A DNA stretch of 64,000 bases from a virus. This document shows, piece by piece, positions 20,770 through 62,301 of the stretch. The position numbers and the translations under genes were made by a program. The stretch is from positions 186,001 through 250,000 of IMG/VR virus record IMGVR_UViG_3300021338_000003, one strand, 5' to 3'. Positions within the stretch are counted from its first letter, which is position 1; each line of letters begins with the position of its first letter. The notes under the pieces are model-generated. The model did no database searches. It worked only from the letters and a program-made list of their open reading frames with translations, and had not been told where the DNA came from.

Positions 20770-21702
20770 ATGAGCATCAAGAAGGTCATCGAGAAGTACG
20801 AAACCACCGCTTCTATGAGCCGCCAGGACTTCAACCAAGCCGTTCAGAAGGTTTGGGGAGGAGAAACCCCGGAGGGGTTGGTTGTCATCAGTCCCACTGA
20901 GTTTGCGTCCCACAGGGGGCTGTCATCTGACGCAAAGTCGATGATTCGAAAAGAACCGAAGGTGCCGGATACCAGACACCGCGGTCGGACGGAGTGGCTT
21001 CCATCTCAGTATATCCAGAACTGGGATTGGAACAATGGTGGTCTCTCCATCAGTTGGAACTGGGAGCAGAGGAAGGTCATCCTTCCCGAGGGGTGGGAGG
21101 ACGACCGCAAGTTCATTCGATCTGTCAATGACTTCTATACCGCAGTGAAGGAGCAACTCCGGGTCACCGAGGAGGGGTGGATTGTCTACTCCTCTCGGGG
21201 CATCGTAGGGAGTGTGTCCCGACAATTTGGGGTTTCTATGAACCGTGCCGAGGCCGTCTTTGAAAAGAACAAGGATGAAGCTCTCCGGCAGACGGAAATC
21301 ATGAGGATTCGACTGCCCATCGCCAGTCCTGTGAATGGGAAGGTCCTCATGATTCGCGACGAGCAAAGCGTAGTCGACTTCCTGGGGACCAAGCTCAAAA
21401 AGTCTCCTGACTTGTACGTGTACGTCGAAGGATATGCCGAGGCCCCCCAAGACCCGGATGAGGAAGTCGATTCCTACAGCGCGTTTGATGGGTGGTCTCA
21501 GAAGGACCTCATCCTCGAACACATTGCCGACATTGATGCATTCGAAGCTGACCGCGACGGGCATTCGGTCATGGCCCTGTGCGGTCCCTTCAAGAGCGCG
21601 GCTGCAAAAAGAGCCTTCATGAAGAAGATTGGCCTCAGCTCAAGGCAAGAGAAGAAGAACCGCGAAACCGCCAAGGCATACGGAACCTTCCAGTCCTACT
21701 AG
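20770..21702 (+). CDS. Tagged protein (MSIKKVIEKYETTAS), candidate packaged protein
   Basis: 310 residues from ATG 20770 after GGGAGAGATGAA. Residues 1-15 are a copy of the short tag shared by several proteins in this window, with Ala-Ser at 14-15. The rest contains two alpha/beta regions and no catalytic motif I recognise; the last 40 residues are Lys-rich. It stands directly behind a strong promoter and upstream of the prohead protease. Packaging into the head with removal of the tag is an inference from comparison with T4 internal proteins. Confidence 0.65.
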   Translation: MSIKKVIEKYETTASMSRQDFNQAVQKVWGGETPEGLVVISPTEFASHRGLSSDAKSMIRKEPKVPDTRHRGRTEWLPSQYIQNWDWNNGGLSISWNWEQRKVILPEGWEDDRKFIRSVNDFYTAVKEQLRVTEEGWIVYSSRGIVGSVSRQFGVSMNRAEAVFEKNKDEALRQTEIMRIRLPIASPVNGKVLMIRDEQSVVDFLGTKLKKSPDLYVYVEGYAEAPQDPDEEVDSYSAFDGWSQKDLILEHIADIDAFEADRDGHSVMALCGPFKSAAAKRAFMKKIGLSSRQEKKNRETAKAYGTFQSY

Positions 21703-21734
21703 TCCGAAGACCCCGCGCCAAGGATAGAACCAAA

Positions 21735-22181
21735 ATGAACCAGCCTCGGGCCAGGACCATGGCCCAGCAAATTACAGGTTGCTCGGTTGTTTTGACCGAC
21801 AATCCTGACGGGTGGTATCAACACCCGGGATTCATCGAGATACCTCGTGGAAAGGGTCGCAAGGAGGCCCTCATCCATGAAGTGTGTCATTGGGTTGTAG
21901 CCAACGACCTTGAGAGAAAGGAAGAAAACCTGGGCATGCCCAAAGACCCCCAGGTTGACCAGTTGAGCCTCTCGAAGGTTATGCGCGAACTTCGAGAACA
22001 ACAGGCTTGCTTTCTTCAAAAAATCCTCTATGCCATGGATGGTAGAGAGGTCCCCCGCAACCCATCATGTCGTTTTCGGCTCATGGTCCCGCTGGGTGTC
22101 GACCACTCGAAGTGGGTGTTTGACCGAGCCCGAGAGATCGGATGGGAGAAATTGTACGTCTTGGTATCAAGGCCCTGGTAG
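21735..22181 (+). CDS. HExxH putative zinc metallopeptidase-like protein
   Basis: 148 residues from ATG 21735, with AGGA 10 bp upstream. H48-E49-V-C-H52 in the context LIHEVCHWV is a zinc-peptidase signature (HExxH), preceded by a strand FIEIPRG as in small metallopeptidase folds; a following helix with Glu residues could supply the third ligand. The C-terminal part is not recognised. It is flanked by two tagged proteins, so a role in the same process is possible. Activity is inferred from the motif alone. Confidence 0.5.
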   Translation: MNQPRARTMAQQITGCSVVLTDNPDGWYQHPGFIEIPRGKGRKEALIHEVCHWVVANDLERKEENLGMPKDPQVDQLSLSKVMRELREQQACFLQKILYAMDGREVPRNPSCRFRLMVPLGVDHSKWVFDRAREIGWEKLYVLVSRPW

Positions 22182-22189
22182 GAGAAACA

Positions 22190-22591
22190 ATGAGCATCAA
22201 AGAAGTAATTGCAAAGTACAAAGTCACTGCCTCGGGCCATGATCAAGAGATGATTAGCCATAGTCATGACTGGGTCAAATATGTTGACACAGAGGGGTGG
22301 GATCGACTATGGGATGACAGTCTCAGACACGTCGCTCCCGAGGGCTACCTCAGGCATATTGAAGATGATGACTTGCAGTACCACATCATCATCTGGCTTG
22401 ATGAAAGACTCTATGACTTCTTGAAGGAGAAGGGCATGGAGATAGACGGAAGAAAGTGGGATGAGGACCTCTCGCAAGCTAGACAAAAGATGATAGAGGT
22501 TGCTTGCAGAAAGTCCGACATACTTGAAGGACGTATCAGGCCAGAAGAAATAGAGAAGGTTATCAAGAGCATACCCGATTACATCACCTGA
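22190..22591 (+). CDS. Tagged protein (MSIKEVIAKYKVTAS)
   Basis: 133 residues; ATG at 22190 after GGAGAAACA, 8 bp behind the previous stop. Residues 1-15 are the reference copy of the tag, Ala-Ser at 14-15. The remaining 118 residues are acidic and helical and do not resemble the other tagged proteins, which is what makes the shared N-terminus notable. Immediately upstream of the prohead protease. Function unknown. Confidence 0.65.
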   Translation: MSIKEVIAKYKVTASGHDQEMISHSHDWVKYVDTEGWDRLWDDSLRHVAPEGYLRHIEDDDLQYHIIIWLDERLYDFLKEKGMEIDGRKWDEDLSQARQKMIEVACRKSDILEGRIRPEEIEKVIKSIPDYIT

Positions 22592-22613
22592 GGTTCCTGG
22601 GCGCTAGGTGGAA

Positions 22614-22623
22614 GATATCAAAT
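22614..22623 (+). promoter_or_regulatory. GATATCAAAT motif, copy 1
   Basis: GATATCAAAT, 13 bp before the protease start at 22637. The same 10-mer occurs at 24439, at 26702 (opposite strand) and at 26739, all in spacers of the head block. Role unknown; a late-promoter or operator element is possible. Confidence 0.35.
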
Positions 22624-22636
22624 GAGGTATCTTCCT

Positions 22637-23503
22637 ATGTCCAAGATGATCACAGGACTGGCAGAAATCGACCCCTACAACCCTCTTGTGGTGTTGGAGG
22701 GGTCGAAGATTATCGAGGAAGTGCGCGAGTCTATCGTGGGGTCGGGCTCCGATCGGAGACTTGAGCGTACCGCGGTTGTGGCTTCTACCACCGAGGGTGG
22801 GTCCATCAAGCGGCGCCCCATGGATGTGTCCTGGCTGGCTGGCGCCAGTGAGGCATACAATATATCAGCCGATGTCCGGGACTACATCTTCGTTAATGTT
22901 CCGATCGTCACGGCCGATTTCCCTAACCGAAACATGGACTGCTTCACGTATGAGGAGCTGACTACTTTCAGCCCAGTTCTGGGTCGCTTCGTCTACGGGT
23001 CTTTCAAAGCCAAGCCGATGCACCTCAACCACAAGAACAAGAACCCCCTAGAGGCCAAGGGGGTCCACTTCGATGCCACACTCCGGAAGTACAAAGTATG
23101 GCCTGGGAAGCAAGGGTATCAGAGCAACAACACCCAGCCTCGCGAACTCTGGAAGGTTCGGGTCATGTTGGGAGCTTGTCGCCAGAAAGACCCCAAGGTT
23201 GCCCAGAGCATCCTTGACAAAAAGCGCACCGGGTATTCTATGGGTGCCTGGATCGACCACGCCTTCTGCTCGGTCTGCCACAATGACAACATGCGCCAGA
23301 AGTGCACCCACCGCCAGCGGGGCAAGGGTTCCATTTCCGCTGACGGCCGCTTGGTATATGACTGCGTGGCTGGTGTCAACTTCTTCGAAACCTCGGTCCT
23401 CGATGAAGAGCCGGCAGACCCTGATGCCTGGGCTCCCGATGGTGTTTGGGCCCCACACCTGCAGCCCAACATCTGGGCATCCTCCTTGGAGGCTGTGCTG
23501 TGA
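22637..23503 (+). CDS. Prohead protease (T4 gp21-like family)
   Basis: 288 residues from ATG 22637 (GAGG 9 bp upstream); an in-frame ATG at 22622 overlaps the GATATCAAAT motif and is less likely. The segment KPMHLNHKNKNPLEAKGV (H129, H132) matches the conserved His block of capsid assembly proteases, and GYSMGAW (S201) is the probable serine nucleophile block. A zinc knuckle follows, C211xxC214...C223xH225, as in relatives of large myoviruses. The enzyme trims scaffold, capsid and internal proteins during maturation. Its neighbours upstream carry the short tag, so it is the likely processing enzyme. Confidence 0.75.
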   Translation: MSKMITGLAEIDPYNPLVVLEGSKIIEEVRESIVGSGSDRRLERTAVVASTTEGGSIKRRPMDVSWLAGASEAYNISADVRDYIFVNVPIVTADFPNRNMDCFTYEELTTFSPVLGRFVYGSFKAKPMHLNHKNKNPLEAKGVHFDATLRKYKVWPGKQGYQSNNTQPRELWKVRVMLGACRQKDPKVAQSILDKKRTGYSMGAWIDHAFCSVCHNDNMRQKCTHRQRGKGSISADGRLVYDCVAGVNFFETSVLDEEPADPDAWAPDGVWAPHLQPNIWASSLEAVL

Positions 23504-23787
23504 GCGACTATATATACCTTGAAGTCACCGTTCTGGTCAGGCACCCCGAGAAGTTCGAGGGATTCAACTTCGAAAATGCAGCAAAGGACCTGGGCCTTTC
23601 ACCTGACCGGCGAGGAAACACCCTCCCTATTCGCACTGACCCTAGAATGGCCAGTGTTCACTTCTGGGGTCGATTCCCTATGGGGCCCGGGCTGCAGGAC
23701 TCCATTCAGAGGCGTGCCGAGTCCGCACTCAGTCCCCTGGGCGTGCGTCGAGTTATCATCAGAGCACCTACGCCGAGGTTCATGTGA
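23500..23787 (+). CDS. Hypothetical small protein
   Basis: 95 residues starting at GTG 23500 with GGAGG 7 bp upstream, overlapping the protease stop (GTGA). Mixed alpha/beta, basic C-terminus. Not recognised. Stop overlaps the next GTG, so it is coupled on both sides inside the head block. Confidence 0.6.
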   Translation: MSDYIYLEVTVLVRHPEKFEGFNFENAAKDLGLSPDRRGNTLPIRTDPRMASVHFWGRFPMGPGLQDSIQRRAESALSPLGVRRVIIRAPTPRFM

Positions 23788-24371
23788 CTATCCGCCATAT
23801 CATCCGGGAGCAAATGGAAATCGAGGCTGCTGTCCCCGCCTGGCTGGCGTCCATGGGTGGAGCCGCAGTTGCCGTCGGTCTTCGTTTTGCCTTGAAGAAG
23901 GTGCTCCAGTCTGCGATGAAGGCCATGGCCAAGCAAGCAGCCAAGAAGGCTGCCCAGCAGGGCGCGAAGAAAATCACCCAGAAGGGTGCCCAGAAGGTAT
24001 TGATGAATCCGAAGGTTATCAAGCCGGCCATGCGGAGAAAGATTGCTCAGAAGGGTATATCCGATTCCGAGATTGATGAGGTCATCAAAAACATGGACTC
24101 GTCAGTGGGCGAGAAAGCCCAGAAACTCGTGTTCTCCTATCTGGTTGAGAAGGGTACAGCCAACAAGACCCTAACCGAACAGGATGTGGCAGACCTCAAG
24201 GCCGGAAAGGCTCCGAAGGGTACCACTTCTCCTACCGCCAGTGGGAAGAAGGGAAAGAACGGCGAAAAGCCCCCGAAGGGCTACGAAAAAGTCAAGAGTA
24301 GCAAGAAAAATGCATATCGTCGCAAAAAGGACGATGGCACGTACGACTACTGGTACCCCTCCAAGAAGTGA
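23784..24371 (+). CDS. Basic head-associated protein with EAAVPAWL motif
   Basis: 195 residues from GTG 23784 (GTGA overlap). It opens with a tag-like MTIRHIIREQ helix followed by IEAAVPAWL at residues 13-21, a hydrophobic Ala-rich helix, then long Lys/Ala-rich stretches and a very basic tail ending in tyrosines. The HIIREQMEIEAAVPAWL block recurs at residues 84-99 of the protein encoded at 35267-36124. Composition suits a DNA-binding internal head protein. Cleavage in the E-A-A site is inferred from the shared motif and the adjacent protease. Confidence 0.55.
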   Translation: MTIRHIIREQMEIEAAVPAWLASMGGAAVAVGLRFALKKVLQSAMKAMAKQAAKKAAQQGAKKITQKGAQKVLMNPKVIKPAMRRKIAQKGISDSEIDEVIKNMDSSVGEKAQKLVFSYLVEKGTANKTLTEQDVADLKAGKAPKGTTSPTASGKKGKNGEKPPKGYEKVKSSKKNAYRRKKDDGTYDYWYPSKK

Positions 24372-24379
24372 TATGGGCG

Positions 24380-24547: not shown

Positions 24548-26689
24548 GTGCCGAATGACCTCCGCAAGATTCGCGCAAAGCAGCAGCAGATGGACGCTAT
24601 CACTGCTTCCATGGATGAGGGCAACACTGACGAGATGCCCACGAACGAAGATGGGAATGGTGCCGAAGCTGGTAGTGATACCGTTGACCTCGATTCTCTT
24701 GACCTCTCTGCCTACATGGACGAGTCCAATGTAACCGCCGCCCCTATTGTCACCGCCGCAGACGACTGCGATGAGGACGAGGACGAGGATGAGGATGATG
24801 AGGACGAGGATGATGAGGACGATGGCAAGGCTACCGCTGGTTTCCAGAAGGGTGACAGCAAGTCTGATGACTCCGATGACTCTGATGATTCCGACGACTC
24901 TGATGATTCCAACGACTCTGACGACTCTGATGATTCCGACGACTCTGATGAGAAGGGCAAGGCCGAGGCCATGACTTCCGAGGCCCGTTGGTTCGAGGAC
25001 CACGTTGCCGCTGCCCTGATCGACGCCGGCCTCAACGACCTCGAAATCGACACCCGAGAGGCAGCTGCCACTTCCCTGTCGAACCGTGCTCACATCGAGG
25101 GTTCTGCCTTCATCCAGGCCATGTCCGATGATGATTTCAGTCGGATGCAGAAGGATATGGTTCCCCTCTACCAAGAGACTCTTCGTATCACCAAGAAGAT
25201 CCGCGAGGCCCAGGCCGAGGCTATGAAGGTTCAGGAAAACCTTCGCGCCAACAAGAAGGTCGAGGCTGCTGCTGACATGGGCCGCGAAATTCGTGACGCT
25301 ATGTTCCAGGATATCGAAGACTCGAACCTCGACTATCATGCCCCCCAGTGGCTTCAGACCCTCGTGGCTGGCTTCTTGGGCAGCGATTCCAAGGAGACTC
25401 AGATGGATACCCCGACCGTTGAGGAGCGTGCGGCTGCTGCGGCGCCGGAGACAGCCCCCACGAAGCCCAAGAAGCCCAAGAAGCCCGCTGCTCACAAGCC
25501 TCGGACGGCCAGTGTGAAGCCTAGCCCTCGGAAGACCAGCCCCATTCAGGCTGCTTTCGAGGCCACGGCTACAGCTGTTGCTGAGATGGTCAAGATTGGC
25601 GATCTCCCCGGCGCTGCTCGCCTCGTCTGCTTTGAGGACTCTGAGGATGCCCGTCAGGCCGTTCAGGTCATGGCTGGTCTCGTGAAGTCTGGCCAGCATT
25701 CCCGGGCTGCCCATATGGTCAACGACCTTCGCACGGCTGTTCTTACGGCTCCCAAGCAGGAGGGTGGTGAGGCCCAAGGTGAGGTCACCGCTGGTGTTGA
25801 AGCTGCTCAACCGATGCATGCTGTCCTTCTGGCCCAGCCCAAGGACTTCGGTGAGGTCAGCGAGGATGAGGTGTCCGTCATCCTCCACGCCGAGGCTTCC
25901 GAGGATCCCTACTACACTGTCATCGTGCAGGGTATGCCGGTGGGTGAGATTCACCTTGCCGACCAGGGTGACCCCGATGAGTATCGTGCGACCTTCGCCG
26001 ATGTCAATGTCTACGGTCGTGGTATCCGTCACGCCGTAGCCAACTTCGGTGTCGAGGATGCCCTGAGCAACTTCGAGGCTCGCTATTTCGTCACCGCCTT
26101 CGATAGCCACGCCGAGATGGGTCGCATCAAGGATGAGGCTGCTGCTCTGGCTGCCGAGGCTATCAACGCCAAGGTTGCCGAGGCTACTGCGGAGATCGTG
26201 GACTTCATGATCCTCGCCCACGAGGGTATCCGTCGCAACGCCTACACCGTCGACGATCCACTGAAGTTCTCCCTGTACGAGACCCTCAAGAGCGCCGGTG
26301 TACGTGAGGCCAACATCCCCAATTTGGTAGAGCAGGCCATCAACATGCCCCTAGCCGTCGATGGCAGCAACGAGCGTACCGCTGCTATGTCGATGTACCT
26401 GGAGATCCTCGCTGAGAAGGCCAAGGAGTTCCAGAATATGGACCCGGCTGCTCTGGAGCACATCACCAAGACCATCATCAACGCCCCTGTCCGTAGCCGT
26501 TCGGCCTCGGTTGAGGCGGTGGCCATGCCCCAGACTCTCCGCGAGCGTCTTGCCAGCAACAACCAGCCGGTCATCAATGTGGGAGATCCGATCACCCCGG
26601 ACCCCCACCCCTCCACTTCGAATAGCACTGCCGAGGATCTTCGCCGTGCTCTCGATCTGAGTCACGGATATCGGAACCGTCGGTCCTGA
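24548..26689 (+). CDS. Acidic prohead scaffold / core protein
   Basis: 713 residues. GTG at 24548 is chosen because AAAGGAG lies 6 bp before it; the in-frame ATG at 24521 has none. An Asp/Glu tract (residues about 74-94) and a Ser-Asp-Asp repeat (about 106-135) make the N-terminal third extremely acidic; the middle is helical with Lys/Pro linkers, and the C-terminal half is an Ala/Glu-rich fold. Early residues include DAITAS, like the end of the tag. Large acidic, helical proteins between prohead protease and capsid genes are scaffolds degraded during maturation. Could alternatively remain as an internal head protein. Confidence 0.65.
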   Translation: MPNDLRKIRAKQQQMDAITASMDEGNTDEMPTNEDGNGAEAGSDTVDLDSLDLSAYMDESNVTAAPIVTAADDCDEDEDEDEDDEDEDDEDDGKATAGFQKGDSKSDDSDDSDDSDDSDDSNDSDDSDDSDDSDEKGKAEAMTSEARWFEDHVAAALIDAGLNDLEIDTREAAATSLSNRAHIEGSAFIQAMSDDDFSRMQKDMVPLYQETLRITKKIREAQAEAMKVQENLRANKKVEAAADMGREIRDAMFQDIEDSNLDYHAPQWLQTLVAGFLGSDSKETQMDTPTVEERAAAAAPETAPTKPKKPKKPAAHKPRTASVKPSPRKTSPIQAAFEATATAVAEMVKIGDLPGAARLVCFEDSEDARQAVQVMAGLVKSGQHSRAAHMVNDLRTAVLTAPKQEGGEAQGEVTAGVEAAQPMHAVLLAQPKDFGEVSEDEVSVILHAEASEDPYYTVIVQGMPVGEIHLADQGDPDEYRATFADVNVYGRGIRHAVANFGVEDALSNFEARYFVTAFDSHAEMGRIKDEAAALAAEAINAKVAEATAEIVDFMILAHEGIRRNAYTVDDPLKFSLYETLKSAGVREANIPNLVEQAINMPLAVDGSNERTAAMSMYLEILAEKAKEFQNMDPAALEHITKTIINAPVRSRSASVEAVAMPQTLRERLASNNQPVINVGDPITPDPHPSTSNSTAEDLRRALDLSHGYRNRRS
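24769..24951 (+). repeat. Low-complexity acidic repeat tract
   Basis: Two adjoining tracts: GAGGAYGA-type triplets coding Asp/Glu (24769-24830) and a 9-base unit coding Ser-Asp-Asp (24862-24951) with about ten imperfect copies. Synonymous T/C changes between copies show it is kept for the amino acids and not freshly expanded. Confidence 0.85.
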
Positions 26690-28078: not shown

Positions 28079-29260
28079 ATGGCAAACCCCTACGGAAAGT
28101 TTTCGGGTGCTACCACCCAGATGGTGCTTGCGGGCACTGATGCTCCGGTTGTGAGTGAAGCTCGCAACTTCGGTCGCACTGTCACTGGCTCCGTCCAGCA
28201 GTCCGGCTCCGGCCTTGCGCCCACCTCCCGTGGCCTAGCCCACGGTGGCGGTGAGCGTCTGTTCGGCGCCAATGGCGAGATCAATGCCTCCAGCAAGCGC
28301 GAGCTGATGGAGAAGATCGGCCTCCTGCTTGACCAAGCCCAGCATGGTGGCTTCGAGCGCCAGATGACCCCCGAGTACAGCCGTGTGGCCCAGGCCCGTG
28401 CTGTTGCTCTCGCCGAAGCCCAGGCCAACCCCGACGGTCCCGGCATGCGGATCATCGCCGAGGCGACCGGCAACGAGGTCTTCGAGACTCTCGGCCGTGA
28501 TGGTCTCGTGCGTCAGTTCCTCCTGATCAACGACCTCAATGGTAGTGACGACGTCAACCGCGTCAAGGTCCGGAAGAAGGACGTGTCCGCGGTCATCTCA
28601 ACCACGAACATCAACACCACCAAGCAGATGGTTCGCCAGATGTGGGTGTACCCGGGCGAGTACTACGTCAAGTCCTTCGTCTCCATTGAGGAGAAGGAGC
28701 TGTCGCAGAACGGTGCCGAGATGCTCGACGAGAAGTTCACGGACATGCTTGAGCAGCACATGGTCCAAGAGGACCGGCACATGAAGAGCCACTTCGATGA
28801 CCAGGTGGGTATCGTCAACCCCGGGCTGACCTTCAACAAGTTCACCCCGCTCATCTTCACCCAGGCTCGCGTGGCTGTCGAGGAGCAGGGCAACCCCTGT
28901 GTCCGCGCTGCCCTCTCCTGGGACCTCTGGGTCGACATTCTCGCTGAGCCGGAGTTCGCCAACTACTTTGACCCGGTCCACAAGCACGCTGCCATCCTCG
29001 ATGGCAAGCTCGGCGCCATCCAGAACGTCCAGCTCTACACCGACGGCTTCCGGTACGATACCCTGCAGGTGCTCGGCACCCGTGAGGTCTACTTCACCGG
29101 TCCGGCGGCTACGGTCGGTGTCCTGGGTCAGCGGAGCCCGATCCAGACGAAGGAGACGGATCGCTACAACCTCGGCCAGGCCGAGCGTGGATGGTTCTCC
29201 TTCCAGATCCAGTCCATGACCACGTTCCCCCGTGCCGTGAGCCGCGCTCGCGGTATCTGA
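28079..29260 (+). CDS. Major capsid protein
   Basis: 393 residues from ATG 28079 after AGAGGAAAATCAAA. Evidence is the position after protease and scaffold, the strongest GC-ending codon bias of the window, a fitting length, and an HK97-type layout: a helical N-arm, an E-loop-like region with VRKKDVSAVIS, a long helix ELSQNGAEMLDEKFTDMLEQ and a beta-rich C-terminal half. Residues 15-19 (MVLAG) could be a maturation cleavage site akin to the VxAS of the tags. A strong terminator follows directly. No sequence search was possible, so the family is inferred. Confidence 0.75.
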   Translation: MANPYGKFSGATTQMVLAGTDAPVVSEARNFGRTVTGSVQQSGSGLAPTSRGLAHGGGERLFGANGEINASSKRELMEKIGLLLDQAQHGGFERQMTPEYSRVAQARAVALAEAQANPDGPGMRIIAEATGNEVFETLGRDGLVRQFLLINDLNGSDDVNRVKVRKKDVSAVISTTNINTTKQMVRQMWVYPGEYYVKSFVSIEEKELSQNGAEMLDEKFTDMLEQHMVQEDRHMKSHFDDQVGIVNPGLTFNKFTPLIFTQARVAVEEQGNPCVRAALSWDLWVDILAEPEFANYFDPVHKHAAILDGKLGAIQNVQLYTDGFRYDTLQVLGTREVYFTGPAATVGVLGQRSPIQTKETDRYNLGQAERGWFSFQIQSMTTFPRAVSRARGI

Positions 29261-29743: not shown

Positions 29744-30738
29744 TGCCCCAGAACCCCACCGGACTGGCCTGGTTGGTGCAGAATGTCCTACCCCGGACGT
29801 TCCAAGGTATCCTCGGTAGATGGATGCTCAAGAAACTCTTCGATGCCCTCCGAGACCGGAAGGTACTACCCCGAAGCATCGACCAATGGCTCAAGAAGCC
29901 CGTCAAGGACCTGAACCAGGTGACGGCCGAATGGGACCCCCTAGAGGCACTTCGACTGGTGCCCGAACTTGGTCATGGCACCGTTGAAGCATCTTCTGGG
30001 GACCTGATTCAGGAATCGGTCCGGACCCTCATTCTCGCCACTGTTGGCAGCCCCAAACCAGGCAAATACCCCAAGGGTATCTCCACCAAGGGAAAGGAGG
30101 TCTGGGATGACATTGTCGAGGATTTTGAGAAGGAAATCAAGGACCTGGGTGAGGGTGACCAGGCCCGTGAATGGGCTGCTGCTATCCTTCTCTATCAGCG
30201 TCGGGCCAAAAAGGCCCGAATCCGCCCATTCGGGAAAGGAACCAAAAGACTCTCCCCACACTCCGGAGATGAGGGTCTGGTCAAGAGAAGAGTTCAGAAG
30301 AGGCTGTCCAATTCCTACAAACGAGGGTTTGCCAAACTCAATGCAGCTCTGGATGCCCTCCCGGGTCGCAAATCTGTACTCCGAGCCATGCAACCCTGGT
30401 CTGGCAAGAATGGGTACTGGTTTGCGGTCTGCTACCGTGTCTCGGTTAAGGACCTGGGCCGTGAGGAGAAGAAGGGGCTAGAAACCCTCCTCAAATCCAA
30501 CTTTCGATTTCGCGATGGAAACAACGGAAGTCTTGTTCACGATGATGCCCGAATGAAGCACATTGTACGCCTTCGCAAGTCCCGACGAGAGTGGCGTCTG
30601 TGCCTAGAGTTCTACATGACGAATCGTGAGGCTGAGTTGATGACCGGAGAGAAGCATAGGGATGATATCCTTGAGAAGCTCCGTAAGGTCACCAGGATCC
30701 TCAAAAAGGAACAAAGAATTCCGAGGAGTATGACATGA
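29743..30738 (+). CDS. Hypothetical basic protein
   Basis: 331 residues from ATG 29743 (TGATG overlap; GGCAGGACACC upstream). Helical N-terminal 100 residues, a basic middle with many Lys/Arg, and an alpha/beta C-terminal region. No motif recognised. Coupled to the genes on both sides, so probably a connector or tail-completion protein. Confidence 0.55.
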   Translation: MPQNPTGLAWLVQNVLPRTFQGILGRWMLKKLFDALRDRKVLPRSIDQWLKKPVKDLNQVTAEWDPLEALRLVPELGHGTVEASSGDLIQESVRTLILATVGSPKPGKYPKGISTKGKEVWDDIVEDFEKEIKDLGEGDQAREWAAAILLYQRRAKKARIRPFGKGTKRLSPHSGDEGLVKRRVQKRLSNSYKRGFAKLNAALDALPGRKSVLRAMQPWSGKNGYWFAVCYRVSVKDLGREEKKGLETLLKSNFRFRDGNNGSLVHDDARMKHIVRLRKSRREWRLCLEFYMTNREAELMTGEKHRDDILEKLRKVTRILKKEQRIPRSMT

Positions 30739-30962
30739 ACAACATCCGCCGTATGGTCTCCCGGAAGGTCATGGCATCTGCCGAGAGCGTATATCTGGAC
30801 CGGATTCGAAATTCCGGGTTCTTGGCCGACTTTGTCAAGGAGATGAAGGGCACTTCCCAAGAAGCCCGGAATTTCGAGGACCAGTTGAATTCCATGACCC
30901 TAGACACCCTCAAGGAAATGTTTCCCGAGAGCGAGCTTGCGGAATATGAGGGGGCACGATGA
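30735..30962 (+). CDS. Small protein with tag-like N-terminus
   Basis: 75 residues from ATG 30735 (ATGA overlap, CCGAGGAGT upstream). The first 15 residues, MNNIRRMVSRKVMAS, align in length and at Val12, Ala14 and Ser15 with the MSIKEVIAKYKVTAS tag although the helix part differs. The remainder is acidic and helical. May be a small packaged or processed protein. Confidence 0.55.
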   Translation: MNNIRRMVSRKVMASAESVYLDRIRNSGFLADFVKEMKGTSQEARNFEDQLNSMTLDTLKEMFPESELAEYEGAR

Positions 30963-33236: not shown

Positions 33237-33677
33237 ATGGGCAAAATGAACGTGTCCAAAATCAGTGAAGTAACGGCAAAATACGAAGTCCTTGCAAGCC
33301 GTCAAGGAATGCATAATGACTTTTTGGAGCGCGCCTACAATATACTAGACGACGCAGGAATTGACAGATCGTCCGTCAAGACTGGAACTCACGGAAGAGA
33401 CTGGTATTGGGTGAGCTTCGAACTTCCGAAGGGGGACTTGTGGTACGAGTGGAGACCCGGTATCGTCTCTCCAGAGACCCAGTCCGGGGAGTCTATCACA
33501 CTTCGACGGAGGCACAGACATAGCAGGCACCCGTCATCCCCCTCTTCCTTTGGGGACGCCCTGGTGAATGTATACAACCCTGCAGAATCCTCCTTCGGGG
33601 ATGTCTGGCTCTCCGACCAAGATATCAGAAATGCCCATTCCGATATCTTGGACGTAATCGAAGGAAAGTACCTCTGA
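33237..33677 (+). CDS. Tagged protein (VSKISEVTAKYEVLAS)
   Basis: 146 residues from ATG 33237 after GGAGAAAAACAAA. Residues 6-21 are a variant of the shared tag, ending Leu-Ala-Ser. The mature part is alpha/beta with a Ser/Arg/His-rich loop near residue 95 (RRRHRHSRHPSSPSS) and a small acidic C-terminal helix. It is the last gene before the promoter at 33679. Function unknown. Confidence 0.65.
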   Translation: MGKMNVSKISEVTAKYEVLASRQGMHNDFLERAYNILDDAGIDRSSVKTGTHGRDWYWVSFELPKGDLWYEWRPGIVSPETQSGESITLRRRHRHSRHPSSPSSFGDALVNVYNPAESSFGDVWLSDQDIRNAHSDILDVIEGKYL

Positions 33678-33728: not shown

Positions 33729-34592
33729 ATGGGATACGAACAGGCACTTTCGACCAAGAAGCTGGCCACCCACTGCATCCTGTGTGGTCAGCCGCTCCGG
33801 GACCCCATCTCGGTTGAGACTGGTGTTGGTCCGATTTGTCGTGCCAAGAACGGCTACAATGAGGCTGGCAACCCCGAGACCCGTGTCCAGTGTAGCAAGC
33901 TCATCCATGCTGCTGCTCAGCCGGGCTTGACTGCCACCGAGGTCTACGACTACGCCGACCAGATCGAGGCCCTCGGGTTCCCTGATGTGGCCGCCAAAAT
34001 CCGGGAACGGTTCCATCGGGCCTACGAATACGAGCAGCGGGGAACCCTCCCAATCAAGATGAAGAGGGAGAATTACCGCCAGTGGACCGACGCCATCTGG
34101 ATGCACATCCCCTACGATGCCGAAACAACCAAGAAGTTCAACCAAGCCTTGAAGGACCGCATTTGGTCCAGTTATCGGACGGGCACGAAGGATGACACTG
34201 GAACTTTCTGGTGGATCGTCGACCCGAAGCGGGCTGACGCCGTCGACGCTCTCCTCCGGGAGTTCTATACCGGTCGTATGTGCCACTCCTCGTTCGGAGA
34301 CTTCATCATCGGCGAGGAACTCGGAGGTGGTGATACCGAGAAGGCCCCTCAGGAGGAAGCCCCTCCAGTCCCTGGTCCCCCTGCAGCGACGCCCGGAGCC
34401 TCTACCCCCTCGTTTGGAGGTAGTGGCGGAAAGGGAGGCAGCGGCGGCGAGTGGACCCCCATCCCCGGCCCGAGCGGATCCAAGACGTCGACCCCCGATG
34501 ACCCCATCACCCCCTCGCGCAGCCCCCGTGAGGTGGCCGCGGAGCGTGGGCGTGCCCGGGCCGAAGAACTTTTGAAATCTCTGGGATTGTGA
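33729..34592 (+). CDS. DUF6011-like Cys-rich protein with disordered tail
   Basis: 287 residues from ATG 33729. Residues 16-38 hold CILCGQPLRDPISVETGVGP followed by IC, the CxxCGxPLxDPxSxxxGxGPxC pattern of the DUF6011 zinc module common in phage and actinobacterial proteins. A central alpha/beta region (about residues 95-190) follows. Residues 200-270 are Pro/Gly/Ser-rich and disordered, ending in a basic helix. First gene of a promoter-led cassette. Probable zinc binding; biochemical role unknown. Confidence 0.6.
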   Translation: MGYEQALSTKKLATHCILCGQPLRDPISVETGVGPICRAKNGYNEAGNPETRVQCSKLIHAAAQPGLTATEVYDYADQIEALGFPDVAAKIRERFHRAYEYEQRGTLPIKMKRENYRQWTDAIWMHIPYDAETTKKFNQALKDRIWSSYRTGTKDDTGTFWWIVDPKRADAVDALLREFYTGRMCHSSFGDFIIGEELGGGDTEKAPQEEAPPVPGPPAATPGASTPSFGGSGGKGGSGGEWTPIPGPSGSKTSTPDDPITPSRSPREVAAERGRARAEELLKSLGL

Positions 34593-35191
34593 TGGACCCT
34601 CGGCTACTACCCTTCGACACCTGGTACAAAGCCAGGTTGCGCTCCGACGCCCCCAAGGATGTGGCCGACATTTTCCGAGGCCACACCAGGCCCTTCGTAT
34701 ATCTGCTCCGCACCCCAAGCAACATTCCAGTGCCCCGCTTCAAATTGGGCCGATTTGTTGCCTGGAGCGGGGCAGATCGTACCCATGGTCACCTGACCGC
34801 GGAAAAGATTAGGGACTCCTTCGAAATCCTTCAGGTCCATGACGACCAGGAAAACCTCAATGAACGGACCAAGAGATTGTTCCGCAGGAAAAAGCAAATG
34901 AGCAAGATGGACGAAGTTGTTGCGAAGTACGAGAACGAGGTCACAGCCTCCCAGAATGGCCAATTCTACAACGATGAGGGGGAGGAACTTGACGCAGAAG
35001 AAGTTGAGAGTCATGTCGAAGCCACTCTCAAGGAGTTGGAGAAGCTCAAGAAGCAGACAGAAGACTTCCAACGTAAGCTCAAGGCCGGCAGTCTGAAAAC
35101 GGAGGATGGGTTTATGTCGTTCATGTCCGTGATCATCCATGGGTATGACCAAACGGGACCTGTGGGCATCAGCTTCGAGTCCAACGATTAG
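34592..35191 (+). CDS. Two-part protein with internal tag copy
   Basis: 199 residues from ATG 34592 (TGATG overlap). Residues 1-100 form a small domain with no recognised family. At residue 103 the sequence MSKMDEVVAKYENEVTAS restarts as a copy of the shared tag, with AGGA 8 bp before that ATG (34898). Either two proteins are made from one frame, or an untagged gene has fused to a tagged one. The second part is an acidic coiled coil with a short globular end. Function unknown. Confidence 0.55.
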   Translation: MDPRLLPFDTWYKARLRSDAPKDVADIFRGHTRPFVYLLRTPSNIPVPRFKLGRFVAWSGADRTHGHLTAEKIRDSFEILQVHDDQENLNERTKRLFRRKKQMSKMDEVVAKYENEVTASQNGQFYNDEGEELDAEEVESHVEATLKELEKLKKQTEDFQRKLKAGSLKTEDGFMSFMSVIIHGYDQTGPVGISFESND

Positions 35192-35213
35192 CCGTCCTTC
35201 CTAGAGACGGTTG

Positions 35214-35242
35214 AGCCCCGGTAGGATAATCCCTCCGGGGCT
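35214..35242 (+). terminator. Terminator between convergent operons
   Basis: AGCCCCGG (35214-35221) and CCGGGGCT (35235-35242) form an 8-bp stem, followed by TATTTGTATT. It separates the plus-strand cassette from the minus-strand block ending at 35267. Confidence 0.75.
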
Positions 35243-35266
35243 TATTTGTATTCAGTCAAGATTGAA

Positions 35267-36124
35267 TCAGCTGGACATCTTCCAGCCTTCGTCATCCTCC
35301 AATTCGGACATAGCCTTCTCCCAATCCGATGGGTGAACCTTCAGGGCCCGCATGGTCTGGTTCATTTCATTGGATACCTGACGAGTGTTGGTAATGGCCC
35401 GTCCAGCCAGGGACAAACGTTCGGTAACCTTGATTACATCCTTGAGGATGTCGGTCTTCGAACGACTGTAGAGGTAGGGAATGAGACGGCCGATGGCCAC
35501 CGACATCACGACAGCAGTGGCTGCCATACCCACGTCTTTGATGAGCCCTACCTTGAGGTACTTGAGAACTCCACGGGCCAGGCTATCTACGACACGACCA
35601 GCACGGTCCTTGCGCTTCTGAAGAAGGGTGTTGTTGACCGAGGCAGCTGTCTTGAAGAAGACTTCCAAGTCACGCTCGGAAGCAGACGTTCCCAGGGCTC
35701 CCAGGAGCTGGGATATAGCCTCGACATTTCCAGCCATTTCATCTTTCCAGAAGGTTACCATGGTGCGGAGGTACAAGGTCAGAACACGCATCAGGACGGT
35801 CACTGCGAGGTAGGCCCCTGCCTGCCCCAGCCATGCCGGGATGGCGGCCTCGACCTGCTTGCGCTCAATGAGATGGGACAGTCGAGTGGCAGCCGTGGCC
35901 TTGGTCTTACCGTCGGCACCAGGCTCGTCCTTGGAATTCCACTCATCATCGACCTCTTCGAAGAAGTCCTTCTTCTCGCTGTCAGACAGGTCCGAAATCT
36001 CATCGATTCCATGCTCCTTCATCTGACCCTTCATATAATTCTGCCAGTCCTTCTCATGCTCGGTCGTGGCAGGATTTCCATCCTTAGCCACCCGGTAGCG
36101 ATCGACGACATCTTTGATCGACAT
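35267..36124 (-). CDS. Tagged protein with EAAIPAWL motif and membrane-like helices
   Basis: 285 residues. Start at 36124 (MSIKDVVDRY) has AGGAG 5 bp upstream; the adjacent ATG at 36127 gives an extra Met. Residues 1-12 match the tag. Residues 20-80 are acidic; residues 84-99 (HLIERKQVEAAIPAWL) repeat the block that opens the 23784 protein, and are followed by hydrophobic helices at about 101-122 and 200-220. This looks like a propeptide plus a mature protein beginning near Ala94. Internal head or membrane-inserted ejection protein are both possible. Confidence 0.6.
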   Translation of the reverse strand: MSIKDVVDRYRVAKDGNPATTEHEKDWQNYMKGQMKEHGIDEISDLSDSEKKDFFEEVDDEWNSKDEPGADGKTKATAATRLSHLIERKQVEAAIPAWLGQAGAYLAVTVLMRVLTLYLRTMVTFWKDEMAGNVEAISQLLGALGTSASERDLEVFFKTAASVNNTLLQKRKDRAGRVVDSLARGVLKYLKVGLIKDVGMAATAVVMSVAIGRLIPYLYSRSKTDILKDVIKVTERLSLAGRAITNTRQVSNEMNQTMRALKVHPSDWEKAMSELEDDEGWKMSS

Positions 36125-36618
36125 CATGTCTCCTGGTATTTGCGGATGACTTCGCGAAGACATGCCACCCGGGCGAATGTTGTTTCGACTATATCCACCA
36201 AGGCGTCTTTTCCTTGGTCAGACACGAAATCCACTACCGATCCGTACCCGGACTGGGCACGAACAGTCAGCACCATGCGCCCCACGTCCTGGGACGTCAC
36301 ATCCGGACCACGCCAAACAGCATGGACCAAAAGCGAATCCAGGTCCATCAATGGGACCCGGAGCTGGCCGAGGGCCTGCTTCGTGGCCCTCCACTTGTAG
36401 TGGTTGGTTACCTGGGGCGGAGCGGGGTTCATGTCCGCCAAAGCCCGGTCGAAGGGGAGCGCAGCCTCAGAAGTCAAAGCCGCCTCTTGGACCCGCATGT
36501 CCACTAGTCCACGAGCAAACTCCGGGAGTTCACTGTAGGCCAGATACGAGTCCGCCAATGAGGAGGCGAAAACCACCTGCATCATTGGCGAAAGAAAGGG
36601 TCTCACGGCCAACCCCAC
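36124..36618 (-). CDS. Hypothetical protein
   Basis: 164 residues from GTG 36618; GTG at 36606 (GGGG 6 bp upstream) is an equally good start, so the N-terminus is uncertain. Helical, Ala/Val/Leu-rich, without motif. Stop overlaps the start of the tagged gene. Its position in a minus-strand block of structural-looking genes is the only hint. Confidence 0.5.
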   Translation of the reverse strand: MGLAVRPFLSPMMQVVFASSLADSYLAYSELPEFARGLVDMRVQEAALTSEAALPFDRALADMNPAPPQVTNHYKWRATKQALGQLRVPLMDLDSLLVHAVWRGPDVTSQDVGRMVLTVRAQSGYGSVVDFVSDQGKDALVDIVETTFARVACLREVIRKYQET

Positions 36619-46938: not shown

Positions 46939-47325
46939 ATGAGCATCAAAGAAGTCATCGCAAAATACAGCATCCAAGCTAGTGCGTCAGAATGGAGTAT
47001 TGGTATATATGATACCAATGGAAACCCCAGCAAGAAGTTCAAATCACTTCCTGATAACCCCTCCCAAGAAGACGTCGCTAGAGCGTCCGAAGGTAGTGGT
47101 GGCAGGGACTACATAAGTGTCTTCAAGTCAGGAAGAGACTGGGCTGTGATGGCAGGGACTTATGGTCCCAGAGATATCGCGTTCTATGTTGTGGCATTGA
47201 AGGGCAAGCACAACAGCATCGCCTCTGACATCGAGAATGCTGTGCATACCCTAGAGGACTTCGACCCCTACGACTACACCGAGGAAGAAGTCGTAACGGC
47301 AATCATGAGACACTTCAAATTGTGA
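46939..47325 (+). CDS. Tagged protein (MSIKEVIAKYSIQAS)
   Basis: 128 residues from ATG 46939; AAAGGGCGGTAGACC upstream. The first ten residues equal those of the 22190 protein exactly, and Ala-Ser stands at residues 14-15. The mature part is a small alpha/beta domain with an acidic C-terminal helix, unrelated to the other tagged proteins. It follows the giant helicase directly, which supports the notion that helicase-associated products are packaged. Function unknown. Confidence 0.65.
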   Translation: MSIKEVIAKYSIQASASEWSIGIYDTNGNPSKKFKSLPDNPSQEDVARASEGSGGRDYISVFKSGRDWAVMAGTYGPRDIAFYVVALKGKHNSIASDIENAVHTLEDFDPYDYTEEEVVTAIMRHFKL

Positions 47326-56448: not shown

Positions 56449-58650
56449 ATGAACCACGCACCTTCGTCTGACGCCGGAATCGAAGAGGTTCAACCGATTT
56501 CAGTGGAAGAGCACAAGGTTCAATTTCCAAACGCCCTGTCTCAATTCGTCTTCACTCGAACTTACCCTCGCTGGAGAGAGGAAGACCAGCGCCGTGAGAC
56601 TTTCGAGGAATCGGTTGAGCGCTATGTGACGTTCATCAAGGAAGAAAGGCCCAAAGTTCCCGCCGAGGTTCTGACCGAAATCAAGAACGCCTTGTTGTCC
56701 ATGGAAGTGGCCCCGTCAATGCGCGCCTTCTGGAGTGCCGGACCGGCCGCCAAACGTGACAACACAATGTTCTACAATTGTTCTTTCATTCCCTTGGATT
56801 GCTTGCCCAGCTTTGGTGAGCTTCTATATGTTCTGATGATGGGCACTGGGGTTGGATACTCGGTTGAATCCAAATTCGTCAACAACCTCCCTACTGTGGC
56901 GAAGCCTATAGACGTTCCCCCTGAGTATATGGTGATACCAGATACCACCAAGGGATGGATGGATGCTCTCACCAAGGGTATGACTGCCTGGTACCAGGGC
57001 AGAGACATAACCTTCGACTTTTCGAAGATTCGCGAGGCTGGTGCCCGTCTCAAGACCAAGGGTGGTCGTGCCTCCGGTCCCCAACCACTCAAGAATCTCC
57101 TCAATTTCACCAAGAAGGTCATTCAGGGTGCCATCGGCCGGAAGCTCTTCACCGTCGAGTGCAACGATATTGCCTGCATGGTTGGCGAAATTGTTGTGGC
57201 ATCCGGTGTTCGCCGTTCTGCTCTTATCTCCTTCTCTGATCCGACCGACAACAAAATGCGGGATGCCAAGAAGTTCCCCATCTGCCAGGAATGCGGATTC
57301 GGATATGCCACGCATCTCTCCCAGGTCACTAATGAGATAGGCGTGGTTGTCACAGACCACGAGAAGGCCCACCTCATGGAGGAGCATGGAATGACCGAGG
57401 CCGAGTATCTGGAGAAACATCCGGATGCCTACCTTGGGTTTGGGATGCACCGGTTCCTAGCCAACAATTCAGCATTCTGGTCCGAAAAGCCGAGCCGGGA
57501 TATCTTCGATACTGAGTGGAAGGCCCTTCGTGATTCTGGGTCCGGCGAGCGTGGATTCTACTTCTTGCCCCCGGCCAAGGTAGCAGAGCGCGGTACCGCC
57601 GATATGAGGTCCAACCCATGTGGTGAAATTCTCCTCCGCTACGCCATGGCTACGAACCCCTGGACGGGTGAAGGCGGTGGTGGTCAATTCTGCAACCTCA
57701 GCGCGGCCATCATGCGCCCATGGGACACCGTCGACACCATGGCCAAGAAGGTATACATCGCCACCTGGATTGGGGCCATCCAGTCTACCTTCATTGATTT
57801 CCCACACCTTCGCCCGGCCTGGAGAAAGCACTGCGAAGAGGACCGCCTGCTTGGCGTGGATATCACTGGCCATTGCGATAACCCGGCTCTATCCACCGAC
57901 GAATTCGCCATGAAGGCCCTCAACACAATTGCCAACTCCACCGCCAGTATAGCCTCGGGTATCCTGGGAATCAACGAACCGAAGAGTGTTACCTGTGGAA
58001 AGCCCTCAGGTAACAGCAGCCAGTTGTTCGACTGCGCCTCTGGGTTCCATACCCGCTACGCTCCCTATTACATCCGACGCGTTCGGGTGTCGGCTACCGA
58101 CCCCCTGTTCCAGCTGATCCGGGACTCTGGTGTCCCCGTCCATAAGGACAACAAGTATCAGTCCTGGAACGACGCCGATTGCCCAACCTGGGTTGCTGAG
58201 TTCCCGGTCAAATCCCCGGAAGGTGCCATGACCCGGGACGACGAAGGAGCGATCGGTCAGCTCAACCGATACCTCCAGGTGATGAGAACCTGGATATCTA
58301 CCCGAGGGCACAACCAGTCTGCTACCGTCTACGTCCGTGACCATGAGTGGGATGAGGTTGGTGACTGGTTGTTCGAGAATTGGAACCACGTCACGGGTCT
58401 ATCCTTCCTACCCTATGATGGCGGAAAGTACAGTCTGGCTCCTTACGAGGCTATCACCAAAGAGCAGTACGAAGCCCTGGTCAAGGACTTCCCAGATGTG
58501 GACTACAACCTCCTCCAATTCTATGAGAAGGAAGACATGGGGCAAGGCAGTCAAGAGCTTGCCTGTGTCGGCGGGAGCTGCGAGGTCGATTGGTCAATCG
58601 GTGACGAACCTCCTCCCCTGGACGATATAGACGCTCTCGAAAGCAAGTAA
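56449..58650 (+). CDS. nrdJ: Adenosylcobalamin-dependent class II ribonucleotide reductase
   Basis: 733 residues from ATG 56449 (GGAG 8 bp upstream). Reduces ribonucleoside triphosphates to deoxy forms using B12. Key residues: C111 in YNCSF, the thiyl-radical cysteine C391 in SNPCGEI with E393, C415 in FCNLS, and C-terminal redox pair C706/C711 in CVGGSC. The GTGVGYSVE and SMRAFWSAGP segments are typical of the monomeric Lactobacillus-type RTPR. A cysteine pair C-Q-E-C occurs in the middle near residue 282. No separate subunit is needed. Preceded by a structured leader and closed by a strong hairpin. Confidence 0.93.
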   Translation: MNHAPSSDAGIEEVQPISVEEHKVQFPNALSQFVFTRTYPRWREEDQRRETFEESVERYVTFIKEERPKVPAEVLTEIKNALLSMEVAPSMRAFWSAGPAAKRDNTMFYNCSFIPLDCLPSFGELLYVLMMGTGVGYSVESKFVNNLPTVAKPIDVPPEYMVIPDTTKGWMDALTKGMTAWYQGRDITFDFSKIREAGARLKTKGGRASGPQPLKNLLNFTKKVIQGAIGRKLFTVECNDIACMVGEIVVASGVRRSALISFSDPTDNKMRDAKKFPICQECGFGYATHLSQVTNEIGVVVTDHEKAHLMEEHGMTEAEYLEKHPDAYLGFGMHRFLANNSAFWSEKPSRDIFDTEWKALRDSGSGERGFYFLPPAKVAERGTADMRSNPCGEILLRYAMATNPWTGEGGGGQFCNLSAAIMRPWDTVDTMAKKVYIATWIGAIQSTFIDFPHLRPAWRKHCEEDRLLGVDITGHCDNPALSTDEFAMKALNTIANSTASIASGILGINEPKSVTCGKPSGNSSQLFDCASGFHTRYAPYYIRRVRVSATDPLFQLIRDSGVPVHKDNKYQSWNDADCPTWVAEFPVKSPEGAMTRDDEGAIGQLNRYLQVMRTWISTRGHNQSATVYVRDHEWDEVGDWLFENWNHVTGLSFLPYDGGKYSLAPYEAITKEQYEALVKDFPDVDYNLLQFYEKEDMGQGSQELACVGGSCEVDWSIGDEPPPLDDIDALESK

Positions 58651-60488: not shown

Positions 60489-60518
60489 CTTGAGAAACAC
60501 CCAATCTGAGGAGGACCA

Positions 60519-60740
60519 ATGGTCTTTGGTTACGTGATTTGGCATCCAGAGGCAAAGATGCTCATCGTCGAGGACTTGCCATCTGGCGGCTACCCTTGTA
60601 CTTCAAGCACGCTGGTGACCAACAGTGACGTGCGTCTCGTTTGCCGTTCCACAAAGGAAAAAGCGGAGGAATACGCCGAGACACTCCCCAGTCACATGGG
60701 CGATGGTTGGGTCGCCAAAGCTGTTGGACTCATCGAATAG
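60519..60740 (+). CDS. Hypothetical small protein
   Basis: 73 residues from ATG 60519 with TGAGGAGGACCA. A short beta-alpha-beta layout with two cysteines. Not recognised. Confidence 0.6.
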   Translation: MVFGYVIWHPEAKMLIVEDLPSGGYPCTSSTLVTNSDVRLVCRSTKEKAEEYAETLPSHMGDGWVAKAVGLIE

Positions 60741-60763
60741 CACCCGCACCCAAAGGAGAGAGT

Positions 60764-61156
60764 ATGTTCGATTCGATCAAGAAGATCAAGGACAAGAAGT
60801 CCAGGAAGATGCTGGAATACCTTTCGTACGGGTTCGAAGGGGAAGGAGAACGTCTGTTCGACTTCCTGGTTCACCTGGCCCACGTCGTTGGGGAGGGCGG
60901 AAACATCACCAGCCATGGCTACACCACCACGGTTCAACCCAGCCATGGGGAGTGGGAAGCAACCCTCGTTGTGGTTGGGAGGCAGGACGGGAAGTTCTCT
61001 GCAGTCCTGATTTGGGCAACCATCTGTGGAAAGGCAGAGGTGGTCCTCGATGGGATGTTTGGTCCTGACCGAGGGTCATCCCTGGCTGACGCCGTCATCA
61101 AGGCGGTGCGGGACCACACCACCAAGATCGGCTGGCATACGCCGGTGGACTTCTAG
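60764..61156 (+). CDS. Hypothetical protein
   Basis: 130 residues from ATG 60764 with AAAGGAGAGAGT. A Lys-rich helix (residues 4-16) precedes a beta-rich body. Not recognised; last gene of its cassette. Confidence 0.6.
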   Translation: MFDSIKKIKDKKSRKMLEYLSYGFEGEGERLFDFLVHLAHVVGEGGNITSHGYTTTVQPSHGEWEATLVVVGRQDGKFSAVLIWATICGKAEVVLDGMFGPDRGSSLADAVIKAVRDHTTKIGWHTPVDF

Positions 61157-61169
61157 ACGATCCTCATAC

Positions 61170-61198
61170 TTGCGCCTCCTTGCATGCCATGTTATAAT
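61170..61198 (+). promoter_or_regulatory. Promoter of the GTGCCATGT family
   Basis: TTGCGC (61170-61175), 17-bp spacer ending ATGCCATGT, TATAAT (61193-61198), then GGGTATACAAGGAGG before the ATG at 61219. Confidence 0.9.
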
Positions 61199-61218
61199 GG
61201 GTATACAAGGAGGTAGCA

Positions 61219-61551
61219 ATGATCGACAGCATTCCCGGATACGACAAGTGGAAGACCAGTGGCCCGCCCGAGAACCCCATGGTCGATATCCTGAAGGTTT
61301 ACGTAGAGTTCGACCCGACCGACGACCTCCACCCCTTCACAATGCACCTCACCCACGAGCAGGTTCGGGTTCTGAACGAATATGAGGAAGAGGTGGTGTC
61401 GTCCAAGGAACACTCGGAGCCCCTCCCGAGCTTCCCCAACGACCCTGCGGAGGCTCTGTCTGACCTCCGCGAGGTAGTGGACGGCATGAGCCACTGTTGG
61501 CTGGAGTACGACGAATACGACTCCGTAAATTTCACCTGGGGGCTGGCATGA
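61219..61551 (+). CDS. Hypothetical acidic protein
   Basis: 110 residues from ATG 61219 with AAGGAGGTAGC. Strongly acidic, helical middle. Stop overlaps the next ATG (ATGA), so it is coupled to the receiver-like protein. Acidic small early proteins sometimes mimic DNA, but nothing here proves that. Confidence 0.6.
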   Translation: MIDSIPGYDKWKTSGPPENPMVDILKVYVEFDPTDDLHPFTMHLTHEQVRVLNEYEEEVVSSKEHSEPLPSFPNDPAEALSDLREVVDGMSHCWLEYDEYDSVNFTWGLA

Positions 61552-61919
61552 AGGTCGTTCTGTGGCTGGATGATATGAGGGACCCCAAGTCCTACGCCTA
61601 CAAGGACCTGCTGGACACCTTCTGTCCAGGTCGCGAAAAGGTGGTCTGGGCAAAGGATGCGTTTGCCTTCAAGGAGGAGTACCTTCAGGTATTCGAAGAC
61701 CCCGACTCCCAGTTGGTTGGGGTCTTCTTTGACAACGACCTTGGGACCCCCGGAGGGGCGGACGGCCGCCATGTGTTCACCTGGATGGAACGGCACGTTC
61801 GAGAGAACAACATCCCCGAGTTTGAGTTGTACGCCCAGACCTCGAACCCCGCTGCCAAACGCGAGTTGAACGGTGGGTTCGCGTCCTTGCGGAGGTTCTG
61901 GGCAGGCATGGAGGACTAG
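61548..61919 (+). CDS. Receiver-like protein, cyclic-phosphate-processing (cREC) type
   Basis: 123 residues from ATG 61548. WLDDMRDP at residues 6-13 (paired Asp) and VGVFFDNDLG with the following DGRHVFTWM match the layout of the cREC receiver-fold domain (V.LDD.R.P ... SLDHDLG ... tG..v..wl) thought to act on cyclic phosphates or RNA ends. The second Asp of the DxD is in place. Possible role in RNA repair or signalling during early infection is inference. Confidence 0.6.
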   Translation: MKVVLWLDDMRDPKSYAYKDLLDTFCPGREKVVWAKDAFAFKEEYLQVFEDPDSQLVGVFFDNDLGTPGGADGRHVFTWMERHVRENNIPEFELYAQTSNPAAKRELNGGFASLRRFWAGMED

Positions 61920-61962
61920 GATTCCTAAACAGATTCAGGACATAGCCAGGAGGGCTAGAAAA

Positions 61963-62301
61963 ATGAGCAAGATGAATGGCTTTGGGGTAGCATTTGAGTC
62001 CGAAGGCGACTTCTACGGTATGGAGGGGGCCATCCAGGAGATGCAAAGTGCCACTTGCGGTGCTATCTTCGATGGGCGCGGGGAACTCATAGTCGTTACA
62101 AACGACGAGCGATGCAGCCTAGAAGACTTCATCTCGGAATACGGCAGGATGTATGGCGAGAGCTATGCCCCCAGCAAAAAAGAAGTGGTGAAGACACATA
62201 ACGTGACCGGAGACGTCACTGCCACGAGCAAGATGGATGAAATTGTGGCGAAGTACAAGAACGAAATCACGGCGGCGGGGGACATTCGTTTGAAGGACTA
62301 G
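61963..62301 (+). CDS. Protein with C-terminal tag copy
   Basis: 112 residues from ATG 61963 with AGGAGG 9 bp upstream. Residues 1-80 form a small alpha/beta domain. Residues 88-107 are TSKMDEIVAKYKNEITAAGD, nearly the same as the internal tag at residue 103 of the 34592 protein, but here at the C-terminus, five residues before the stop. This shows the element works, or is tolerated, at either end. Function unknown. Converges with the SbcD-like gene at overlapping stops. Confidence 0.65.
   Translation: MSKMNGFGVAFESEGDFYGMEGAIQEMQSATCGAIFDGRGELIVVTNDERCSLEDFISEYGRMYGESYAPSKKEVVKTHNVTGDVTATSKMDEIVAKYKNEITAAGDIRLKD

Follow-up and report, generated by a model that had tools for sequence, protein, structure and literature searches.

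A short peptide that recurs on about ten otherwise unrelated proteins of a giant phage is most probably a cleavable capsid-targeting propeptide, similar in kind to that of T4 and differing from it in sequence and in protease site. The phage is represented by the virus record IMGVR_UViG_3300021338_000003 (250,817 bases), of which bases 186001-250000 make up the window analysed here (64,000 nucleotides; positions refer to it unless the record or another genome is named). Six copies of this peptide, hereafter called the tag, are N-terminal, three are C-terminal and one is internal, one of the tagged proteins being encoded outside the window. As a prediction from sequence, import into the head followed by cleavage at VxA↓S (the arrow marks the predicted cut) is well supported.

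Close relatives of the phage were not found by DNA search and single-protein scans. Its capsid protein and protease have their best matches, with identities of about 30%, in giant phages, among them Lu11, HRDY3, NCTB, Motura, Alexandra and PaBG.

The tag and its carriers

Genes were called with our own script and individual gene starts are provisional. The tag copies are the following.

20687..20719 (+), C-terminal tag-like peptide SLETVIAKFS-stop of an InPase-domain protein (gene 19880-20719, Pfam InPase 4.1e-39)
20770..20814 (+), N-terminal tag MSIKKVIEKYETTA↓S (MSIKKVIEKYETTAS) of a 310-residue orphan (gene 20770-21702)
22190..22234 (+), N-terminal tag MSIKEVIAKYKVTA↓S (MSIKEVIAKYKVTAS) of a 133-residue orphan (gene 22190-22591); the prohead protease gene follows directly
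33237..33299 (+), tag MGKMNVSKISEVTAKYEVLA↓S (MGKMNVSKISEVTAKYEVLAS), seven residues in, of a 146-residue orphan (gene 33237-33677)
34898..34951 (+), internal tag MSKMDEVVAKYENEVTA↓S (MSKMDEVVAKYENEVTAS) at residue 103 (gene 34592-35191)
36095..36124 (-), N-terminal tag MSIKDVVDRY (MSIKDVVDRYRVAKD), without an xA↓S site behind it (gene 35267-36127(-))
36124..36162 (-), C-terminal tag-like peptide CLREVIRKYQET-stop (gene 36124-36585(-))
46939..46983 (+), N-terminal tag MSIKEVIAKYSIQA↓S (MSIKEVIAKYSIQAS) of a 128-residue orphan (gene 46939-47325)
62224..62301 (+), C-terminal tag TSKMDEIVAKYKNEITAAGDIRLKD-stop (SKMDEIVAKYKNEITAAGDIRLKD-stop), with DVTA↓T before the helix and EITA↓A behind it (gene 61963-62301)
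Outside the window, N-terminal tag MNKMDEVIAKYTTNDEVTAS (gene 154048 of the record)

All the peptides listed in the first-pass annotation were found in their places; the C-terminal copy at 36124..36162 and that of gene 154048 are additions to its list. Its consensus, MSIKEVIAKYxxxAS, proved too narrow, given the C-terminal and internal copies and the existence of SKMDEV variants. Two subfamilies, MSIKEV and SKMDEV, can be distinguished, and two of the starts are identical over 10 residues.

When compared with 2000 shuffled proteomes, 8-mers like IKEVIAKY (BLOSUM62 score >= 22) are in large excess at both protein ends: six are seen at N-termini where 0.06 are expected, and three at C-termini where 0.10 are expected (maximum 2 in either case). 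None of the 2000 shuffled proteomes reaches the observed counts. The annotation had described the bodies behind the tags as unrelated, and BLASTP among the tagged proteins bears this out, the tag being almost the sole similarity. A short terminal peptide common to otherwise unrelated proteins, as in the T4 type, is what is found here. The main exception is a short segment common to genes 23784-24371(+) and 35267-36127(-) (E 4e-4). This segment reads EAA[VI]PAWL followed by hydrophobic stretches; it forms the start of the former protein and is internal in the latter.

The codons of the tag differ synonymously (GTA/GTC, ATT/ATC, AAG/AAA), the closest copies also diverging in this way, which indicates that the tag is conserved at the peptide level. 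An amphipathic helix is not claimed, since only some copies stand out in the corresponding test. Furthermore, the concern that the peptide might be common elsewhere was not borne out: in pattern scans of viral contigs no other virus has the tag at a protein start and only internal or unrelated matches were obtained, so a tag of this sequence is unlikely to be widespread. Literature searches, incomplete in coverage, found no description of such tags. For the 20770 protein, Pfam and PHROG searches gave no confident family and the AlphaFold2 model is unusable (pLDDT 37).

The ATG at 34898 is preceded by an AGGA-type stretch that resembles a ribosome-binding site, and translation of the 34592 gene may have a second start there. 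In the same way, Motura gp172 (NC_049849 137455-138582(-)) holds a tag of the Motura type, MMEIFASTRLQATA, inside the annotated protein; this copy corresponds either to an internal start or to an internal tag.

Another peptide keeps the spacing of the site with a different helix:

30735..30779 (+), N-terminal peptide MNNIRRMVSRKVMA↓S of a 75-residue protein

It is a possible second tag class, not statistically established. N-terminal peptides of a second class (MNKIRQHVIRA, MNKVKKAILRA, MNRIRQTIVEAA, MNTLRNVVLVA) are seen in the same half of the genome, at 147572, 148507, 156738, 174502 and 175960 of the record and at 30735 of the window. Some of its carriers look paralogous; the class is possibly another tag.

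A putative cleavage site common to the tags and the capsid protein

Within 12 residues behind the helix, a [ILVMFT]xA[SAT] site is present in 7/8 copies, against 5% of proteome windows (binomial P 6e-9, a value to be taken only as a guide because tag copies may share ancestry). This association is not circular, since the search word excluded the site motif. The tags flank the head genes, those for the protease, the scaffold and the capsid protein being located between tagged genes:

9623..13510 (+), large terminase subunit (phrog_17415 7.1e-136)
13800..15851 (+), portal protein (phrog_16240 2.2e-100)
22637..23503 (+), prohead (head maturation) protease (phrog_18299 3.6e-44)
24548..26689 (+), large acidic scaffold-like protein, whose position matches that of the scaffold-like gene of relatives (annotated 'ATPase')
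28079..29260 (+), major capsid protein (phrog_2522 7.1e-35), with a predicted 70-residue propeptide ending GEINA↓SS

The protease has the features of a head maturation protease (gp21/assemblin-like), its His and Ser motifs being conserved in an alignment of five proteases. It carries TAVVA↓S just ahead of the conserved domain and IWA↓SSLEAVL at its C-terminus, and the scaffold-like protein has AITA↓S close to its N-terminus.

Aligned with one another, nearly all of about 85 related capsid proteins show a motif of the G[ED][ILFVM]NA↓S type where the variable N-terminus meets the conserved body. The residue at P1 is almost always Ala, and Ser is frequent without being universal at P1'; in GR11A the motif reads NV↓A, and two fragments stop short of it. 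Because a site of the same type stands at the border of the capsid propeptide, the site next to the tag is probably the prohead-protease site, in agreement with the one predicted from the capsid proteins. In the PaBG capsid protein the predicted cut would remove 41 residues, or about 11% of the mass. Processing of this protein has been reported (PMC7412058), and the published gel estimate of about 20% mass loss agrees with the prediction in direction and only roughly in size. Phage G gp27 (6wkk), a capsid relative of known structure, aligns only with the part behind the site region and so has no bearing on the cut. Across the whole genome the excess of xAS at N-termini is weak (2.3 vs 1.45 per thousand), so the tag set has to carry the claim.

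The annotation had proposed a head-packaging or ejection signal cut near VxA↓S. This proposal gains from the position of the tags around the protease-scaffold-capsid operon, from the sites of the capsid proteins and from the tags of relatives described below; it does not hold for the 36124 copy, which lacks the site.

Tags of related phages and their concerted change

Relatives were searched for N-terminal peptides common to proteins with unrelated bodies, with pairs of internal segments as null (0-14 per genome). Motura has a cluster of 13 tagged members and further cases, about 14 proteins in all (MxIQAxxRLxA), mostly in the block 132975-145187 beside the head genes. About ten tagged proteins each were found in Lu11 (MKIQLAVA) and HRDY3 (MEMxLALA). 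The tags of all three phages end in Ala. Furthermore, Lu11 gp068 and the HRDY3 gene at 226324 form a tagged orthologue pair located between the protease and scaffold genes.

In six orthologue pairs of Lu11 and HRDY3, the tags have changed in concert. Tag identity is 0.72 between non-orthologues of one genome and 0.48 between orthologues, whereas identity over the six residues behind the tag is 0.17 within a genome and 0.61 between orthologues. Position 2 of the tag is K/R in 6/6 Lu11 tags and E/N in 6/6 HRDY3 tags. A label-swap test on these tags gives 2/64, the smallest possible value. Such a concerted change would be expected if one common partner read all the tags of a genome. It offers a route to the receptor and hints at a cargo code particular to each phage.

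Another kind of shared tag is seen in a 199,871-base contig (L129) that belongs to a different phage and encodes a distant member of the same protease family: several neighbouring genes in 4779-11969(-) start with M[KNS]R[IKS]EQ[IL]xKL[AT].

Links to the virion and possible cargo

PaBG gp83, whose gene is just upstream of the scaffold-like gene, starts MLIKINLLEAVA↓AKA. This N-terminus is built similarly to the tags, and the peptide is common to a small neighbouring reading frame. The protein is one of the 14 identified in PaBG particles (PMC7412058 Table 1). It was matched to the table by position and mass, the masses of gp83, gp80 and gp81 agreeing if the table values are monoisotopic.

YHGT proteins resembling ADP-ribosyltransferases are found among the tagged proteins of Lu11 and Motura, with matches below the Pfam cut-offs (for example Lu11 gp211 vs ART-PolyVal, E 1.6e-4). 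A precedent is T4 Alt, an ADP-ribosyltransferase packaged in the head and ejected (PMC9026906). On the genome of the present phage, ADP-ribosyltransferase profiles gave weak matches only. Two YHGT proteins with similar N-termini are encoded at 35114-36286 and 152774-153994 of the record, the first matching a PARP profile below the cut-off (E 3e-4); both are possible ADP-ribosyltransferases. As regards the InPase-domain protein, InPase domains have been proposed to be packaged in virions (PMC5512222).

Elsewhere in the window, the 1740-residue protein encoded by 41171-46393(+) has DNA-helicase matches. This protein may be packaged in the head too, because the SNF2 helicase of Motura (1528 residues) is encoded close to the protease gene and PaBG virions are reported to contain a helicase of 221 kDa. 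A ribonucleotide reductase gene is located at 56503-58650(+) (phrog_367 2.4e-133).

Proposed mechanism and alternative explanations

From the anatomy of the tag and its comparative behaviour we infer a course that runs from scaffold binding through cleavage and packaging to ejection, with roles for the cargo. The helix I/M-x-E-V-I-A-K-Y would bind to the prohead core, most likely to its scaffold component, and thereby bring unrelated cargo into the growing head. During maturation, the prohead protease would cut behind the Ala of [V/I/L/T]-x-A↓S/A and free the cargo, which would remain in the head and probably be ejected with the DNA. C-terminal copies would act from the opposite end of the cargo.

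Several observations weigh against this reading. Tag and body are not separated by a good site in the N-terminal copy at 36124(-) and in 2/3 C-terminal copies. Sites are not in excess in the scaffold-like protein, such an excess being significant only in some relatives. The Lu11 and HRDY3 tags end L-A-V/L-A, so that P3 is Ala and not hydrophobic as in the capsid site, which they match at P1 only. PaBG, NCTB, GR11A and Aura showed no large tag cluster on clustering of N-termini, and the ADP-ribosyltransferase matches are weak.

Some of these points would suit tags that target proteins to the head and stay on them. Encapsulins have such permanent cargo-loading tags, and several copies here lack a site between tag and body. 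Most N-terminal copies, however, have a site at a near-fixed distance, and the border of the capsid propeptide bears a site of this kind as well, which makes uncleaved tags improbable. It also seems unlikely that the peptide serves for docking to another hub (RNA polymerase, membrane, replication compartment or tail) and that the Ala-Ser is coincidental. The core KEVIAKY could suit many partners, and two tagged genes, 46939 and 154048 of the record, are distant from the head operon. Against such docking stand the site behind the helix in 7/8 copies, which matches the capsid border site, the final Ala of the Motura, Lu11 and HRDY3 tags and the orthologous tagged pair inside the head operon. The least probable explanation is that the shared ends are functionless remnants of recombination or gene duplication. 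Copying is suggested by the two subfamilies and by the two identical 10-residue starts, and the tag is private to this phage. On the other hand, the closest copies diverge synonymously and not in amino acids, and this, together with the placement at both termini, the unrelated bodies and the concerted change of Lu11 and HRDY3, points to selection on the peptide.

A cleavable capsid-targeting propeptide therefore remains the preferred reading. A broader proposal, put forward tentatively and somewhat more likely to fail than to hold, is that giant phages of this group import proteins into the head by a fast-changing address private to each genome: one tag per phage, borne by a large and shifting set of cargo, would change jointly as the receptor changes. 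Tag and receptor would then constitute a phage-specific code readable from sequence and usable at either end of the cargo. If the propeptide reading is true, sequence alone would suffice to list the proteins, mostly unannotated orphans, that many giant phages package in the head and probably inject. This reading also predicts a prohead protease specific for Ala↓Ser, whereas the sites in T4, phiKZ and SPN3US have Glu.

Comparison with known systems

In the giant phages SPN3US and phiKZ, the prohead proteases gp245 and gp175 remove N-terminal propeptides of head proteins after a short motif (PMC10052503). The likeness lies in the removal of such propeptides by a prohead protease in giant phages. 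The motif there is A-x-E and the propeptides are mostly long, and the parts of that source consulted describe no short tag shared by many proteins (PMC10052503). P1 DarA is an internal head protein whose N-terminus is removed by the prohead protease; its propeptide is longer, about 70-90 residues, and no shared tag is described in the sections consulted (PMC12810830). The Dar proteins and the tagged proteins are alike in being, or probably being, internal head proteins.

Prohead proteases and the herpesvirus protease assemblin are homologous. The assemblin of pseudorabies virus has the sites VQA-S and YLQA-T (PMC4498786). This chemistry is close to that of IQA↓S and VTA↓S here, a resemblance only, with no membership claimed. 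The (V/L/I)-x-A↓S/T type of site matches, yet the scaffold-like protein has no excess of sites. Assemblin also differs in cutting itself and the scaffold, not tagged cargo.

In T4, the internal proteins IPI-III and Alt carry a capsid targeting sequence (CTS) cleaved by gp21, of which about 10 residues suffice, and Alt is processed at its C-terminus as well. In the T-even phages the cargo is diverse and only the CTS is conserved (PMC3012670, PMC9026906). The tag described here has Ala at P1, and its site [hydrophobic]-x-A↓S/A does not follow the L/I-x-E motif of gp21; because that site is a defining feature of the CTS, the tag is not filed as a member. It differs further in its peptide, in its C-terminal and internal copies and in its variation between related phages. 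Like the CTS, it is a short N-terminal peptide on otherwise divergent proteins, followed by a predicted prohead-protease site.

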